This document shows positions 37,853 through 48,100 of a stretch of DNA of 64,000 nt, in pieces (the stretch's first letter is position 1; every line of letters starts with the position of its first letter). The stretch comes from Hyaloraphidium curvatum. Taxonomy: Eukaryota > Monoblepharomycota > Hyaloraphidiomycetes > Hyaloraphidiales > Hyaloraphidiaceae. The stretch is from the NCBI GenBank assembly GCA_025558095.1, contig JAIVFI010000039.1, forward strand, positions 310,001-374,000. Reading direction: 5' to 3'. Under the pieces are notes generated by a model. The model saw only the letters and a list, made by a program, of their open reading frames with translations. It did not search any database and was not told the origin of the DNA. The position numbers were made by a program, and so were the translations under genes.

Positions 37853-39597
37853 ATGCCCGCCTCGCTATTCCTTGCCCTCGCGCTGCTTCTTGCTGCCCCT
37901 GCTCGCGGCCAGGGCCCGCCGGAGTACACCTGCGGGAGCTACGAGACGTGCGTCGGCTGGCGGGATAAGGCGGTGGACCGGAACCAAAAGTTCATGGAGT
38001 GCGTCGGAGATTACTGCAGCGACCTGAACACATACATTCGACGCCGGTTCGGTGCCACAAGGTACCTCGACGACGGCAGCGGTTATACGTACTTGGATTG
38101 CTGTCTCTGTGACAGGAAGTACTACCAGGTACGGGCGCCCGGGACTTTCCCCACCTGCGGTAACGCTAACAGTTTGCAACAGGCGGCCGTAATCAACCAC
38201 AAGTGCCTCGACTTGACCTTGTCTTGGGTCGAGAAGAACCTCGCGAGGTGCGGGCAGTACAACTGCTCGCTGAAGGACGCCACCAGCACCACCACCACCA
38301 AGACGCCAACTTCGGGCACGACCTTCTCGACAGCCACGTCGGAGTCGGGACCTTCGGGCGCTTCCGGGACGATCGGTACTGGGACCGCCAACCAAGGCGG
38401 CCCTGGGACCACGATGGGCCCTGCTTCGCCGCCTGCACCTCCCACCGACGTCGGCCCCGCCACGTCAGCCGTCAACACCGCTGCGACGACGGGGGTCCAG
38501 ACCACGGGGACCATCCAGACCACGGCGGCCATCCAGACCACGGCTGCCATCCCGAGCACCCCGGCCCAACCCACGGATCCCCCCGCCCCGCCCTCTGATT
38601 TCCCGGCCCCGCAGCCCACGGCGCGCCTCGGCTGCCAGTTTTTGTGCACGCCCGAGGCCCACCGCGATGCGCTCGATGATGACCTGCCCCCCGGGGTCAC
38701 CGCCTTCGACGACGACGGGGAGCCCGTCTCGGACTCGGACCGGAGCTCGCTGGGACTCGACGGACTCGGCACGTCGCTCAGGAACCTGATCTCACTGCCC
38801 AAGGACGCGCTCGTGCACATCAAGCAGGCCGCAAAGCGACCCTTGGAGCGGCTCAAGGAAGCCTACAAGCCCGGGGGTTTGCTGGGGTTAATCGTCGTCG
38901 GCGAGCTGGGGCAGGACAGTCTAAAGATTGTGGATGGCGTGGGACAGGCGGTGCGTGCAAATCTGGGCTCCCCAAGCCGCAAGTCGGACTGACTCTCCTT
39001 GGTCGTTGGCAGTTCGAAGGCGTCACGGATCCGAACCAGGATACGGACCGGGCCATCACGACGATCGAAACCTCGATCAATAAGTTCGTGCTCAAGCTCA
39101 CCGGGGTGCGCCCCTCGGACGTGTCAACCGGCCCGGACGGGACCAGCAAGCGGAGCGGCATCGAGGCCCGCCAGGCGGGCTCCACCGTCACCTTTACCAC
39201 GGGGTACGCATATTCGGACAAGCTTTTGTCCGTAGGAGTCTACGATTCGGACGGGAACCTGTTTGCACGCGCGAGCTACGAGCTGCAGGGCACCGCGCCA
39301 TCTTTCCTCCCCGTGCGGATCCGGCTCGTTGCGATCGCGAGAAACGAGACGTCCGGTACGGCAAGTAGCGCAATGCCCGTATCGGCAAGCAGAACATCAT
39401 CGGCACCAACGGGCAGCACGGGCACCAGGACCAGTAGCACTTTGGCGACGACGACTCTGCCCGCACCGACGACAAGTGCGAGCAGGGCGGCGACGGCGCA
39501 GCCGACAACCTCCCGGCCCAGCGGTGCGGCGGGGTTCTCCAAGCGGTCGATTTGGGTTACGATCATTGCGATCGCCGTGCTGCTGCTCTTTTCGTGA
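37853..39597 (+). CDS. Mucin-like, probably GPI-anchored surface protein
   Basis: Exons 37853..38950 and 39013..39597 (62-nt intron, GTGCGT) give 560 aa. It has a signal peptide (LFLALALLLAAPARG), a Cys-rich N-terminal domain (CGSYETCVGW, CVGDYCSDL, DCCLCDRK) and a Thr/Ser/Pro-rich stretch with TTAAIQTTAAI repeats. A second folded part follows (FEGVTDPNQDTDRAI ... TTGYAYSDKLLSVGVYDSDG), then another Ser/Thr-rich tail and a terminal hydrophobic segment (IWVTIIAIAVLLLFS) with nothing after it, the pattern of a GPI-attachment signal. A 54-nt stretch (38129..38182, GTACGG...ACAG) may be a further intron; it is a multiple of three without a stop, so both forms are open. Function unknown; probably cell surface. 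Confidence 0.75.
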
Positions 39598-39761: not shown

Positions 39762-41378
39762 CTACGTGGTCTTGACCGTCGCCGTGATCGTGCGCGTAAC
39801 GACGCGCGTACGCGTCGCCGTCTTGAGCGTCACCGTCCTGGTCGTCCACCTCGACGTCGTCCTCTGCACCGTCTTGGTGCACTTTGACAGCGTCGAGGTC
39901 TTGGTGCATTTCGACGAAACGAGGGTCCTCGTGACGCTCTTGGTGCAGCGTGAGACGGTGACCGTAACGGTCTTTGACGACTGCACCGGCAGTATGTGCA
40001 GGCAGACGGAGCGGATGGTGCCTTCGTCGCCCTGTGCGGTGTCGTTGACGAGCAGGTTCCAGGTCCCGTTCGCAACCAGCCCCTTGAAGCGGGACAGCTC
40101 CCCAACGGGCTTGTACAACTCCGGGCCCATTGAAGGGTCGTAACCGTAGTTGCAGTACATGTCGGGATCGGTGGAATCGTCGAAGAACAGGGGGGGGTAC
40201 GAGTTCGGGCGCCCGCTGGCGTGGCCGCATGAGACGCTGTGCTGGAAGAGGGCAACGGTCCCTCCCGCGGGGTGGCGGATGGAGATTTCTAGGTCGCTCA
40301 TATAGCTGTGCGTCAGGTCCAACTCCACGGCCACGCTGCCGATGGAGCCGACGCCGCTGACGGGGAGGTTGAACGATGCTTTTCCGTATTCCGGGATGGG
40401 CACGGCAGACGTCTTGCAGATCCTCTTCACTGCAGGGTTCACTGTCATGGTCCTGCGGGTCATTGTCGCAGTAGTTTGAGTGCTCGTCGTCGTGCGCGTG
40501 CGGCGTCCGGTGACGAGGTCGACGGCTGAAGCGATGGCGTCCGCGTACTGTGATAGCCGCACAAACAACGACCGGGTGTCGGTGGTGCTGCCGCAAGAGT
40601 GGTACAACGACATGCCGACGACGGTCTTGTTTCCTGCCACGTCCAGCACCAGCGGGCCGCCCTCATCGCCCGAGCACGTGCCTTTGGACGGGTTCGCAGT
40701 CCAAATCTCGTTGCCGCTCACGTAGGACACGGCGAGGTCGACCTCGGCGAGCTGTGAGACGAACTTGCCGTCGGCGCCCATGCCCCAGCCCGCGGCCTTG
40801 ACGGCCGCGCCGACCGCCGGATCGGTCGTGCTGAGGACGGCGGGCACCAGCGGCCGGGAGCCGACGACGACGGGCTCGCTGAGGCCGAGGAGCATCATGT
40901 CGTAGCCGATGGGCTCGAAGGAGCGCACGGTGAAGACATAGGCCCCGTCGTCCTGCGGAGTCAGGGACAGGTTGAAGCGCCCGACCTCGACGGCGTCAGG
41001 CAGGTAGCCGTACGGGCTGACGCAGTTGGACGAGGTCAGCGCGGCGCGTGGCGCGACCAGGGTCGCCGTGCAGTTGTAGTTGCCCACGTTTTCCGGGTAG
41101 ACGACGCGGGCGACAAAGGGAAACGCGGTGGCCGAGGGGACCGGCTGCCCGCCGGCGACGTTCGGCGTGAGCTCGCGGGGAGCCAGGTTGCCGGCGGGGT
41201 CGTCCACGAGCTTTTGGCGGAGCGCCACACCGGCGCCGCCGTCCACGATGTCGTGGCGGCGGCCGAGTCCGGCGTAAGGGGAGGCGAGGGAACGGGGGAG
41301 CGCAGCGGCGGCGAGGGCGGCCAGCGCCGCCGCGAGGCACACGCGACAGGAGAGGGGCGAAGACGTGCGTTTCGTCAT
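39762..41378 (-). CDS. Secreted trypsin-fold pseudoprotease with P-domain
   Basis: 538 aa from the ATG at 41378, with a signal peptide over residues 10-32. The trypsin fold is clear: VAGGQPV, the Cys pairs, AGWGMG, and SGDEGGPLVLDVAGNKTVVGM. Two of three catalytic residues are changed: the His in LTAAHC is Asn118 (LTSSNC), and the active Ser in GDSGGP is Glu239 (GDEGGP). Asp160 (GYDMMLLGL) remains. A proprotein-convertase-type P-domain follows (about 360-470, SDLEISIRHPAGGTVALF, NGTWNLLVNDTAQGDEGTI). The last 70 residues are Thr/Lys/Arg-rich with regular Cys (SKCTKTSTLSKCTKT). It is probably an extracellular binding protein rather than an enzyme. It is intronless and convergent with the surface protein. 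Confidence 0.85.
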   Translation of the reverse strand: MTKRTSSPLSCRVCLAAALAALAAAALPRSLASPYAGLGRRHDIVDGGAGVALRQKLVDDPAGNLAPRELTPNVAGGQPVPSATAFPFVARVVYPENVGNYNCTATLVAPRAALTSSNCVSPYGYLPDAVEVGRFNLSLTPQDDGAYVFTVRSFEPIGYDMMLLGLSEPVVVGSRPLVPAVLSTTDPAVGAAVKAAGWGMGADGKFVSQLAEVDLAVSYVSGNEIWTANPSKGTCSGDEGGPLVLDVAGNKTVVGMSLYHSCGSTTDTRSLFVRLSQYADAIASAVDLVTGRRTRTTTSTQTTATMTRRTMTVNPAVKRICKTSAVPIPEYGKASFNLPVSGVGSIGSVAVELDLTHSYMSDLEISIRHPAGGTVALFQHSVSCGHASGRPNSYPPLFFDDSTDPDMYCNYGYDPSMGPELYKPVGELSRFKGLVANGTWNLLVNDTAQGDEGTIRSVCLHILPVQSSKTVTVTVSRCTKSVTRTLVSSKCTKTSTLSKCTKTVQRTTSRWTTRTVTLKTATRTRVVTRTITATVKTT

Positions 41379-41991: not shown

Positions 41992-43653
41992 ATGCCCACG
42001 CCCTCCCTTTACCCCGGCGCCCGCGTCGCCCTCCACGCCGACGGCCGGCACCCCGGCACCGTCCGCTTCCTCGGGCCCGTGGCGCACCCCGGCGCGCCCC
42101 CCGGGGACCACGCGTACCTCGGCGTGGATTGGGACGATCCCGCGCGGGGGAAGCATTCGGGGGAGGTCGGGGGGCGGAGGTATTTCGCGGTGGGGAGGGA
42201 AGGGGCGGGGAGCCTGGTGCGGGTGCCCGAACAGGGCGGGGAGGGGGGGAAGTGGGTGACGGGGAAGGGGAAGTGGCTAACGACAGGGGTGCCGCTAGCC
42301 GAAGCGGTCAGGGAAAAGTACGCCGGCGCGGCCGAGGTGGATCCCGGCGAGTGGGGCGGGAAGAAGGTCGAGGTGGTCGGGTGGGGCAAGCTTGAACGGA
42401 GGCTGGCGCGGCTGGGGGCGCTACGCGAGGTTTCCGTGTCCGGGATGGACGTGCGCGGCTGTCGCGACGCGGGGGAACTGGAGGACGTTCGGGGACTGCG
42501 CGAGGTCAGGGCACTGGACGTGTCGAGGTGCCTGTTTGCCTCGCTGCAGGAGATTGGCGAGGCGGTGGCGGCGATGGGGGCCGTGGAGGAACTCAGGGCG
42601 GGCGGAAACAGGCTCGTGGAGCTGGTGCCGGATGAGATCGCGTTCGCGGTCGGGGACAGGGCGCCTCAAACCGCCGCGGAAGACGGGCTCTCCAACGAGC
42701 CGACAGTTTCTCCTCCGCCCCCTTTACCATTCCTCACGATACGCACCCTCGCTCTCACCGCCCTCGTCGTGGCACCCAGCTGGCCCCGGATTTATGCCCT
42801 CCTGGAGCAGTTCCCCAACCTGCTCTCCCTGGCTCTGGGCTGGAACTCCCTCCCCGACCCCACCTCGCCGCCGGCCGGCCTCACCCATTCCCTCCGCGAG
42901 CTCTCCCTGGAGCACAACGCCCTCACCGCGCTCCCCGCCGCGCTCTCCGCCGCGTTTCCGGACCTGGAACGGCTCAACCTCGCCAACAACCTCGTCGCGG
43001 ACGCCTCCTCGGCCCCGGGTAGCTTCCCAGCTCTCCGCGCGCTCAACCTCTCGCACAACCTCCTCCCCACGCTGAGGGCGCTGCACCCGCTCAACGCCCT
43101 CCCCGCGACGGACATCCGCCTCTCGGGCAACCCGTGCCTGGCCTCGGTTCCGGCGGACGATGTATTGCCGCAGCTGGCCGCGCGCCTCGCCCGCGCGGAA
43201 AAGGTCAACGGCGCGCAGGTGGTGAGGAGGGAAGCCGAGGTGTGGTACGCTTCCCGCGCGTGGGAGGAGCGCTGCGCCTGGGCCTCGAAGGCGGCCGGTG
43301 AGGGGGGGTGGAGCAGGGCGAAGGAGGAGGGGTGGTGGGATTCGGAGCATCCCCGGTTCGCCGAGGTGGTGCGGGAACACGGGCTTCCGTACGAGATGTT
43401 CTCCCCGCCCGCAAGGGAGAAGGCGGCCAAGGGCACGCTGGCGGCGGGCATGCTCGATGTGACGCTGCGGGTGCACCGCGGGGGCCGGACGAGGGAGGTG
43501 GCGAGGAAGGTGCCGCGGGGGATGGATGCGGGGATGCTGGCGCGGATGGCGGGGGGAAGGAGGGCCGAGGTGAAGGGGAGCGAGATCGAGGGAGGGAGGG
43601 AGGTTGCGTGGTACCTCGAGGAAGGGGGGGTCGTGGACGTGTATACGGACTGA
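41992..43653 (+). CDS. TBCE: Tubulin-specific chaperone E (cofactor E)
   Basis: An intronless frame of 553 aa. An N-terminal CAP-Gly domain (about residues 5-70) has GTVRFLG and YLGVDWDDPARGKHSG. Leucine-rich repeats run from about 150 to 390 (LPALRALNLSHNLL, LERLNLANNLV, TDIRLSGNPCL). A C-terminal ubiquitin-like region starts near 480 (LDVTLRVHRGG...). This order is the TBCE signature. TBCE binds alpha-tubulin and works with cofactors C and D to build alpha/beta-tubulin dimers in the cytosol. The start is the ATG at 41992, directly before the CAP-Gly domain. The antisense 497-codon open frame here is a GC shadow. Confidence 0.88.
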   Translation: MPTPSLYPGARVALHADGRHPGTVRFLGPVAHPGAPPGDHAYLGVDWDDPARGKHSGEVGGRRYFAVGREGAGSLVRVPEQGGEGGKWVTGKGKWLTTGVPLAEAVREKYAGAAEVDPGEWGGKKVEVVGWGKLERRLARLGALREVSVSGMDVRGCRDAGELEDVRGLREVRALDVSRCLFASLQEIGEAVAAMGAVEELRAGGNRLVELVPDEIAFAVGDRAPQTAAEDGLSNEPTVSPPPPLPFLTIRTLALTALVVAPSWPRIYALLEQFPNLLSLALGWNSLPDPTSPPAGLTHSLRELSLEHNALTALPAALSAAFPDLERLNLANNLVADASSAPGSFPALRALNLSHNLLPTLRALHPLNALPATDIRLSGNPCLASVPADDVLPQLAARLARAEKVNGAQVVRREAEVWYASRAWEERCAWASKAAGEGGWSRAKEEGWWDSEHPRFAEVVREHGLPYEMFSPPAREKAAKGTLAAGMLDVTLRVHRGGRTREVARKVPRGMDAGMLARMAGGRRAEVKGSEIEGGREVAWYLEEGGVVDVYTD

Positions 43654-45106: not shown

Positions 45107-48100
45107 ATGCGCAATAGCCTGCTCTATCTCCTCGCGGCGCTGGCCGCCTGCGGGACGCTCCCCACGCGCGGGATCCCGGTGCCGCCGGCTACCTCGATCG
45201 CGAACAGGCAGAAGATTTTGTGCGGCAATCTCGCCGGCTACACGGAGCTGTCTTCCGCCACGCTCCCCTCCGCGTGTGCAGTGCTCAGCCGCGGCACGCG
45301 TCCGGACTGCACGCTCCGCCAGGGCGTCCACTTCGCGGTGCAGAGCAACCTCACCTTCGGCCTGCTGCACATCCCGCCGGACACCACCGTCGAATTTGCC
45401 GATTGCGGACCCAACGCTGCCTTCCGCCTCTCGGCGGAGGTGATCGTGGTGGACGGCACCCTCCGCGCGGGGCGCGAGGACGACCCGTACGACTCGAAGC
45501 TGAACATCACCCTCCGCGCCGGGGACGAGATCGTTTACGGCGATGTCAATCCTCCCCTGCCGGCCGGCATGGTCGGCTACAAGGGAAACTTTGGGATCAT
45601 CCCGTCGGTCGAGCACACGGCGAGCAAGTTCATCGGAGTCCGCCCCGGGGGCACCCTCGACTTCCACGGCGTGCCGAAGCTCCCGTGGACCCGCATATCC
45701 AAGACGGCGACCAGGAGGCAGAACTACCTCTGCGTACTCGAGAAGGCGGCGCAGCTGGCGTGGCTTGTGGGCGACGAGCTCGCCCTGGCCCCCTCGAACT
45801 ACCGCGGCTTCGAGCAGACCGAGCGCGCCCGCATCGCAAGGATCGAGGACGGCAGCGCCGACTGCGACGGCAACGCCAAGATCTCGCTGGACCGCGCGCT
45901 GGCGTTCGACCACTACGGCGACGCCCTCGCCGATGGCGAGGACCCCCGAATGCGCGCCGAGGTTTCCAACCTGAACCGCAACCTCCTCATCTGGGGCGCC
46001 CTGGACGACATCACCAAGGACCCGCAGGGGCTGGGCGAGTACGGCGCGCACACGCTGTTCCTGTACGGCTCCACCGTGCGGCTGGACAACGTCGAGGTCG
46101 TGAACGGGGGGCAGGCGGGGCACATGGCCCGCTACCCGGTGCACTGGCACCTCGCGGGCGACGCCGCGGGGAGCTATCTGAAGAACTCGAGCGTGCACGA
46201 TTCGTTCCAGCGCTGCGTGGTGCTGCACGGGTCGTGGGGCGCTCTGGAGGTCAAGGACAACTCGTGCTTCGACATCACGGGGCACGCTGTGTACTGGGAG
46301 AACGGGATCGAGGTCGACACCGAGGTCACAGGCAACCTGGTGATGCTCGTGCGGCCTGGAAACCTGCTCTGCTCGGACAACGGGGCGGGCACGTACACCG
46401 ACGGCAACTTCAATCTGAACCAGAGCACCGGCGGTGCCAACGAGGGGCCCTCGGCCTTTTGGATCGTCAACGGAAACAACATAGTGGACGATAATGTCGC
46501 CGTCGCCGTGGGGAGGGGGCCCAACGAGGGGATCGGGTTCTGGCTCGGTGGGCAACTCGCACGCCGCATGCTTGTGGTGTCGCTCCTGACCGCCCGTGCG
46601 CAGTCGTGCCGCAGTTCATCATGTCCCCCTCGTACGAGTTCTTCGGCAACGCCACCGTGCAGCGGCTCCTCAACGTGCCACCCGAGTACCCCGTGCAGAA
46701 CCCCACCGAGATCCCCATGCGCTCCTTCAAGAACAACGTGGCGCACTCCATGTTCACGGGGTTCAAGGCCGACGGCATCCTCCGCTCCGCGGGGAACGAC
46801 CCAGGGTCGTGCGTCAAGGAATCCGCGGGCGTGTGGAACCCAAAGAACCAGAGCAACTTTGACGGGTACTTTGCCTGGAAAAACCAGGTCGGGCTGTGGA
46901 TCAACTCGGAGAAGGCGGTGTTCAGGGGCACGCGGCTCGCGGACAACGTCAGGGGGGCGTACATCGAGAAGATCCAGGTGGGCCGCCGTCGCTCCCGTTT
47001 GCAGCCCATCGAGGCAGTCCCTGACCCCCTAGCCACCGAAATCAGGTCAACCAGCAAGTCCCCCTCCTCCGCGCCGATCTCCCCACCTGCTACCCCATCT
47101 CGGGCCTCGCCGCCATGGAGAACTGCTACCCCGCCTACGCCGCCCCGCCCGAGGAGCCCGGGAGCTTCATCCGGTTCGAGGACACGTGGTTCCGCGGACG
47201 TACGGCCAACCAGGCCCGATTCTACGAGAGCCCGTGCGCCTCGTACGCCACGAACCCCGAGAACATGGACTGCCTGCTTTTCGGGCAGGTCGGCATCATG
47301 ATGAGCATGGGCTATGCGTACTTCAACGGGGTGAAGGCATCGGGGTACGTGACCGGAAACGGGGCGAGCTACGGGCTGTTTGGGCACAAGGAGGATCCCG
47401 GGTACAACGTGGGGCCTTTCTACGTCAGCAACGTCACGTACCTGGACGGATCCAACCCGGTGTTCATGGACGACATGAACCAGTCGGGGTGGGTGCTTCG
47501 TCGTGTGAATGCCGTGGTCCTCGCTAACCTGATGCGCAGGATGTTCGTTCGTATGAAGGCCGGCGCGCTCAACAGCATGCTCTACTCTTCCGACGGCACG
47601 TTGGCCAACCCCAAAGTCGCCTCGCCCGAGCTCAAGGCCATCCTCGCCCAGGGCAACGGCATCACCATTGCCCCGCGCTCACCGGCCATGGTCGACGCGC
47701 GCTGGGAGAAGCGGTGCTACTGCCCGCCCGAGTACGGCTTCGCGTGCGCGTGCCCGGGCGACATGCGCGGCATCTTTGTCGAGGTCATCGCGCCCTTTGC
47801 CGGCTCGTTCCCGGCGCACTCGACGGTCGACGTACCGAACGTTGTGGAGCAGTTCTGCCAGACCGGCGCGCGGTTCATGCAGAATTCGAGCTGGGGCGCG
47901 CAGCACCGGTGCCTGCAGGACACGACCACGCTGGCGTCGGGCGCGGACTTGGACGACACGTACCTCGTGCAGTGGGCGGGGGCCTCGGTGCTCGGGATGG
48001 CATCGGTTAACGGCACGCTGGCGGTCCATCCGCCGCGGCTGCTGCTGGGCCTGCCGTCCGGCAACCGCAGCCTGTCATTCGCCATCAAGCAGCTCGGGCA

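Follow-up and report, generated by a model that had tools for sequence, protein, structure and literature searches.

A gene that specifies a well-preserved trypsin fold with substituted catalytic residues raises an immediate question: is it the remnant of an enzyme, or does it encode a protein retained for some other function? Such a gene lies on the minus strand of the 64-kb stretch of Hyaloraphidium curvatum DNA analyzed here (the window, about 65% G+C), on a contig labelled C39. It consists of a single open reading frame of 538 codons, with an ATG at 41378 and a TAG at 39764-39762. The predicted protein matches the Pfam families Trypsin (residues 82-282, 54.4 bits against a cut-off of 20.6) and P_proprotein (residues 347-460, 36.3 bits against a cut-off of 21), which bears out the first-pass annotation of an intact frame encoding a trypsin domain followed by a P-domain. 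The order of elements is signal peptide, propeptide, S1 domain, Thr linker, P-domain and basic Thr-rich tail, and GC3 is 0.87 overall and between 0.85 and 0.91 in each domain. Table 1 presents the coordinates of these features together with those of the neighboring genes, one of which carries G8 and CEMIP domains, known from animal proteins that bind or degrade hyaluronan.

Table 1. Features of the pseudoprotease gene and of its neighbors in the window.
Feature	Position	Strand	Basis or remark
Complete CDS, without introns, 538 aa + TAG	39762..41378	-	ORF; GC3 0.87
Signal peptide, residues ~1-33	41280..41378	-	LAAALAALAAAAL after a basic N-terminal segment; helix predicted over residues 10-25; judged by inspection
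Propeptide, residues 34-73, ending before new N-terminus V74	41160..41279	-	V74 aligns with elastase residue 16
Arg-Arg, residues 40-41, putative Kex2-type cleavage site	41256..41261	-	dibasic pair also in C7 paralogue
Trypsin-fold (S1) pseudoprotease domain, residues 74-290	40509..41159	-	PF00089; pLDDT mostly >85; Z 28 vs elastase
His57 position = Asn118 (AAC)	41025..41027	-	alignment, codon reading
Asp102 position = Asp160 (GAC), retained	40899..40901	-	alignment, codon reading
Ser195 position = Glu239 (GAG)	40662..40664	-	alignment, codon reading
Thr-rich linker, residues 291-320	40419..40508	-	low pLDDT
P-domain (proprotein convertase type), residues 321-468	39975..40418	-	PF01483; profile match to 3hjr/3wqb
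Basic Thr/Cys-patterned tail, residues 469-538	39765..39974	-	37% Thr, net +16
Frame with G8 domain and CEMIP beta-helix domain	45107..47029	+	
CAP-Gly and leucine-rich-repeat protein, probably tubulin folding cofactor E	41992..43650	+	divergent neighbor
Secreted-looking Cys-patterned, Thr/Pro-rich protein(s)	37853..39594	+	no Pfam match; convergent neighbor

With a charge of -8 the trypsin domain is acidic, and it is the linker (+8 over residues 291-322, of which 34% are Thr) and the tail that make the protein positive. A profile built from the P-domains of the family matches the extracellular serine protease 3hjr/3wqb with E 4.7e-5, and a search with the tail alone returned only the tail itself, probably due to its simple composition. 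The dibasic motif of the propeptide reads GLGRR in this protein and GLGKR in a paralogue on contig C7. Judged from sequence, this layout with its conserved dibasic site points to an extracellular binding protein that would be anchored via its C-terminal parts.

The catalytic motifs read ALTSSNC (His), GYDMMLLGL (Asp) and KGTCSGDEGGP (Ser). When the protein is aligned to 44 bacterial trypsins, across which the columns flanking the catalytic sites are invariant or nearly so, N118 falls in the His57 column adjoining the invariant C119 (C58), D160 occupies the Asp102 column, and E239 stands in the Ser195 column between D238 (Asp194) and G240 (Gly196). An AlphaFold2 model was obtained with pLDDT mostly above 85 in the trypsin domain and with low confidence in the P-domain and tail. 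Its residues 74-289 superpose on elastase 16-245 with a Z score of 28.4 and an rmsd of 2.2 Å over 209 residues, so that the Pfam match and the structural comparison together establish a two-barrel S1 fold over its full length. The only His in the domain, H260, is next to the equivalent of Cys220 and away from the active site. The replacements of His by Asn and of Ser by Glu with retention of Asp, which the first-pass annotation had read from LTSSNC and GDEGGP, are thus confirmed both by alignment and by predicted structure, and the protein lacks the His57-Asp102-Ser195 triad of an active S1 peptidase. In addition, Gly occupies the Asp189 position, the C168-C182 disulfide has been lost and the 99-loop is shorter.

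Several trivial explanations were considered. Because the predicted structure superposes on elastase, a slipped alignment cannot account for the motif assignment, and misalignment is further ruled out by the bacterial trypsins. A sequencing error is rejected as the source of the Ser to Glu change: the GAG codon is at least two base changes from the usual Ser codon, which in the active paralogues is TCN in nearly every case and AGC in one, and Glu is also present in the C7 paralogue, encoded there by GAA. Incorrect splicing is excluded by the lack of introns. A search of viral structures yielded nothing beyond generic folds of the trypsin-like and viral protease kinds. Taken together, it is nearly certain that catalysis has been lost.

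The genome as a whole (31.9 Mb in 55 contigs) was then scanned. Pfam located 41 trypsin pieces, which were converted to gene models by splice-aware profile alignment; the paralogue models are therefore predicted ones. Introns near the His motifs were inspected by eye, leading to the correction of one model (L044, His to Ser), and single-protein searches of the genome added the third member of the second inactive clade described below. A scan of the contigs that used the mixed alignment brought out no conserved stretch. About 33 trypsin-like genes were found, of which ten have a broken triad, eight of these lacking both His and Ser. The residues at 57/102/195 are N/D/E in the gene of the window, E/lost/E in C7:776k, Q/D/Q in C1:1560k, S/D/T in C41:261k, R/D/R in C33:432k, L/D/S in C43:2k, S/D/S in C39:477k, N/D/P in C4:141k, E/lost/G in C4:140k and G/D/P in C5:615k. 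The triad is intact in the approximately 23 others, including C4:18k, which contains an in-frame stop. The genome also contains several Chitin_synth_1 matches, as would be expected of a fungus.

The first-pass annotation had described the pairing of trypsin with a P-domain as rare, and this does not hold for the host genome, where the two domains recur together in an expanded gene family. A strong P-domain follows the trypsin part in C39, C7, C13, C12, C1:469k, C1:1560k (which may be one gene or two), C43:382k and C41, and a weaker P-like domain does so in C33, C36:62k, C43:7k, C43:2k and C39:477k. Four of these, C13, C12, C43:382k and C1:469k, are active paralogues with the layout of the gene studied here. 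P-domains also occur in other genes of the genome, in tandem, without trypsin or beside other domains. In this fungus the P-domain has the look of a C-terminal module that has been shuffled. Tandem arrays were seen at C26:188.8-201.2 kb, C24:644-648 kb, C36:438-443 kb and C34:208-212 kb (L033, L034, L037, L036, L038), with no trypsin or subtilisin domain found near them, and at L040 (C31) a metalloprotease-like HEIGHNMGANHD reading frame adjoins a P-domain. A bacterial source of the trypsin-P architecture was rejected; none of the 44 bacterial trypsins scanned, which are a sample and not a census, has a P-domain, and some have a PPC domain.

Phylogenetic analysis placed the gene and its C7 paralogue (L029) as sisters, with support of 100/99. 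In the first tree, seven inactive and six intact genes fell in one weakly supported trypsin-P group, and the three short inactive genes of C4 and C5 formed a separate clade (100/100). Monophyly of all ten inactive genes is rejected (AU test, p 1.6e-64). Parsimony requires at least five changes of state (five to six across bootstraps), mostly in trypsin-P genes, a count that is uncertain in that many inner branches are weak, some tips are long and no more than two changes follow strictly from the branches with full support. The members of the second clade are L065 and L060 (C4:136500-143900) and L147 (C5:614300-616600), with the states E/-/G, N/D/P and G/D/P among them; the two on C4 are arranged head to head, their Ser motifs (TGDGGA and AGDPGAF) are far from canonical, and no P-domain was found in any of the three. 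A further pair, the near neighbors L046 and L047 (C43:1500-9000), are 59% identical with dN 0.33 and dS 0.55, one being intact (H/D/S) and the other having Leu for His (L/D/S); this is probably the youngest catalytic loss of the family.

The C7 paralogue provides information about the history of the inactive state. It has in common with the gene of the window S195E, the loss of His57, G189 and the loss of the C168-C182 disulfide; it differs in having Glu at both 57 and 195, in the loss of Asp102 and in the deletion of Gly193. Since the first four states are shared, the inactive state is most simply older than the split between the two genes, and the divergence between them would therefore have taken place in proteins that were already inactive. 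The two trypsin domains are 44% identical and the tails, at 57%, are the most similar region. Over the full length (518 codons, Nei-Gojobori) dN/dS is 0.40, with a bootstrap range of 0.30-0.52, and by part it is 0.40 (0.21-0.57) in the trypsin domain, 0.42 in the P-domain and 0.49 in the tail; these ratios are approximate, with dS high (about 1.5, near saturation) and codon bias strong. For the intact pair C12/C43 the corresponding value is about 0.35 (0.48/1.38). In a neutral simulation, the chance that the frame would be free of stops was 0.2% at 0.2 changes per site. The ratio of 0.40 implies that the inactive protein has been kept by selection, and the gene very probably continues to be so maintained. 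It accordingly belongs with the serine protease homologues, non-catalytic S1 proteins retained by selection.

This conclusion bears directly on the possibility that the gene is a decaying pseudogene or dead retrocopy without function. The gene lacks introns and its C7 sister has four, at least three of them at positions where other members of the family also have introns, including one within the His-motif codon and one in the linker, both common to other members. This is what would be expected of an old retrocopy. Against decay, there are 538 open codons, a GC3 of 0.87, the full-length dN/dS and the intact sister gene, so that neither a broken frame nor relaxed constraint is seen. A real decaying member of the family looks different: in L049 (C4:16800-19800) His, Asp and Ser are kept and an in-frame TGA occupies the Cys191 position. 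We regard loss of function as extremely improbable, and the simplest reading is that the gene is an old retrocopy that stayed functional. The first-pass annotation's view that this is a pseudoprotease rather than a pseudogene is thereby upheld, given that both residues are missing, that the state is common to a paralogue and that constraint, frame and predicted fold are all intact.

What might such a protein do? We propose a secreted S1 pseudoprotease that has lost catalysis and acts through binding, a proposal whose chances we consider evenly balanced. On this proposal the protein would enter the secretory pathway and its propeptide would probably be trimmed. The trypsin fold would then form without the ability to cut, with His57, Ser195 and Asp189 all absent, and the former substrate cleft, or a surface near it, would most likely hold a partner peptide or protein, as in UmbA (see below). 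The P-domain and cationic Thr-rich tail would most likely place the protein in the cell wall or in an anionic matrix. P-domains usually assist subtilisins in folding and stability and are not lectins, which counts against a binding protein. The binding role suggested in the first-pass annotation is nevertheless a reasonable inference. That annotation also named a lectin as a candidate; Pfam found no lectin family in this protein, which has the P-domain instead. More tentatively, secreted enzymes of the trypsin-P type may repeatedly have been converted to a binding role in this fungus (ten genes, with a minimum of five changes). The outcome would be a diversified set of adaptors built on dead trypsins, with P-domains and with tails that bind the wall, analogous to the UmbA adaptors or to insect serine protease homologues and undescribed in fungi; we consider this reading possible but doubtful.

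Other functions would also be compatible with a retained inactive fold. The protein might pair with or position an active trypsin-P paralogue, tuning its activation or choice of substrate in the manner of the insect homologues, non-catalytic proteins that are known to act in innate immunity. Four active paralogues of the same layout exist and have the P-domain and style of tail in common with this protein, and therefore may share its location; but the active genes are scattered across contigs, with none adjoining it, and such a regulator seems rather unlikely. Alternatively, the tail and P-domain might do the work of a structural protein of the wall or matrix, with the trypsin fold as a mere spacer. 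Conservation between the two inactive paralogues is indeed highest in the tail, and P-domains exist without trypsin in other genes, yet the upper bound of 0.57 on dN/dS in the trypsin domain indicates that the sequence of this domain matters, and we judge the spacer explanation unlikely.

The first-pass annotation had also suggested a decoy, which would soak up protease inhibitors or mimic a substrate-bound enzyme and so shield active trypsins. The fold is kept, and an inactive enzyme beside active relatives is the usual decoy arrangement. However, with Gly at the Asp189 position (in the C7 paralogue as well), a shorter 99-loop and no C168-C182 disulfide, the protein should be a poor target for canonical inhibitors with Lys or Arg at P1, so that this role is disfavored where such inhibitors are concerned and is quite improbable overall. 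Finally, the acidic cluster of Asn57, Asp102 and Glu195 might form a new hydrolase, metal or ligand site. Glu195 is common to both paralogues in spite of the 44% identity of their trypsin domains, and the C7 protein has a second Glu at 57, but that protein has lost Asp102 and Gly193, and we know of no S1 relative that uses a site of this type. We consider such a site very improbable.

Muszewska et al., in the main survey of serine proteases in fungi, report mostly conserved active sites and by design left out any sequence in which two of the three catalytic residues were replaced (PMC5567314), so that surveys of this kind would miss a family of dead trypsins. A prokaryotic survey lists P-domains with subtilisins and reports 42 inactive homologues over five families (PMC2605481). 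Within the open-licence literature we found no report of dead trypsin-P proteins, or of a pseudo-trypsin family, in fungi. Inactive proteases are familiar from animals and from the toxin particles of Streptomyces; for an expanded fungal set, the same literature yielded no report. With active and inactive copies of one architecture, several independent losses and a pair with measurable dN/dS, this single genome allows the passage from an enzyme family to a family of binding proteins to be tested directly.

Comparison with known systems places these proteins in context. Kexin, furin and the bacterial kexin-like proteases (3hjr) share the P-domain family with this protein, but their catalytic domain is a subtilisin (S8) and not an S1 domain. 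The CLIPA-type serine protease homologues of insects resemble the situation in this fungus in forming an expanded inactive S1 set beside active relatives; they often carry clip domains, act in immune cascades and, unlike this protein, have no P-domain. Azurocidin, or heparin-binding protein (1a7s, 1fy1), matches our protein by sequence at about 1e-7; it is an S1 homologue that is secreted, lacks catalytic activity and functions through binding, as is proposed here. It has one domain only, with the cationic charge on the trypsin fold, whereas here the trypsin domain is acidic and the linker and tail are cationic. Among experimental precedents the best is UmbA of the Streptomyces umbrella toxin particles (8w20), whose N-terminal trypsin fold lacks a complete triad and, as in this protein, precedes an accessory domain at the C-terminus; it is matched both by sequence (E 1.3e-4) and by fold (Z 27.4), although many trypsins match 8w20 equally well. 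Every UmbA of S. coelicolor lacks a complete triad and the purified trypsin domains are inactive; modelling, together with substitutions, indicates that UmbB is bound by its N-terminus in what was once the substrate cleft (PMC11062931). UmbA possesses its own lectin domains and binds UmbB in a bacterial toxin particle, whereas the fungal protein has a P-domain and Thr-rich tail; the likeness is that of a common trypsin fold and not of a shared complex.
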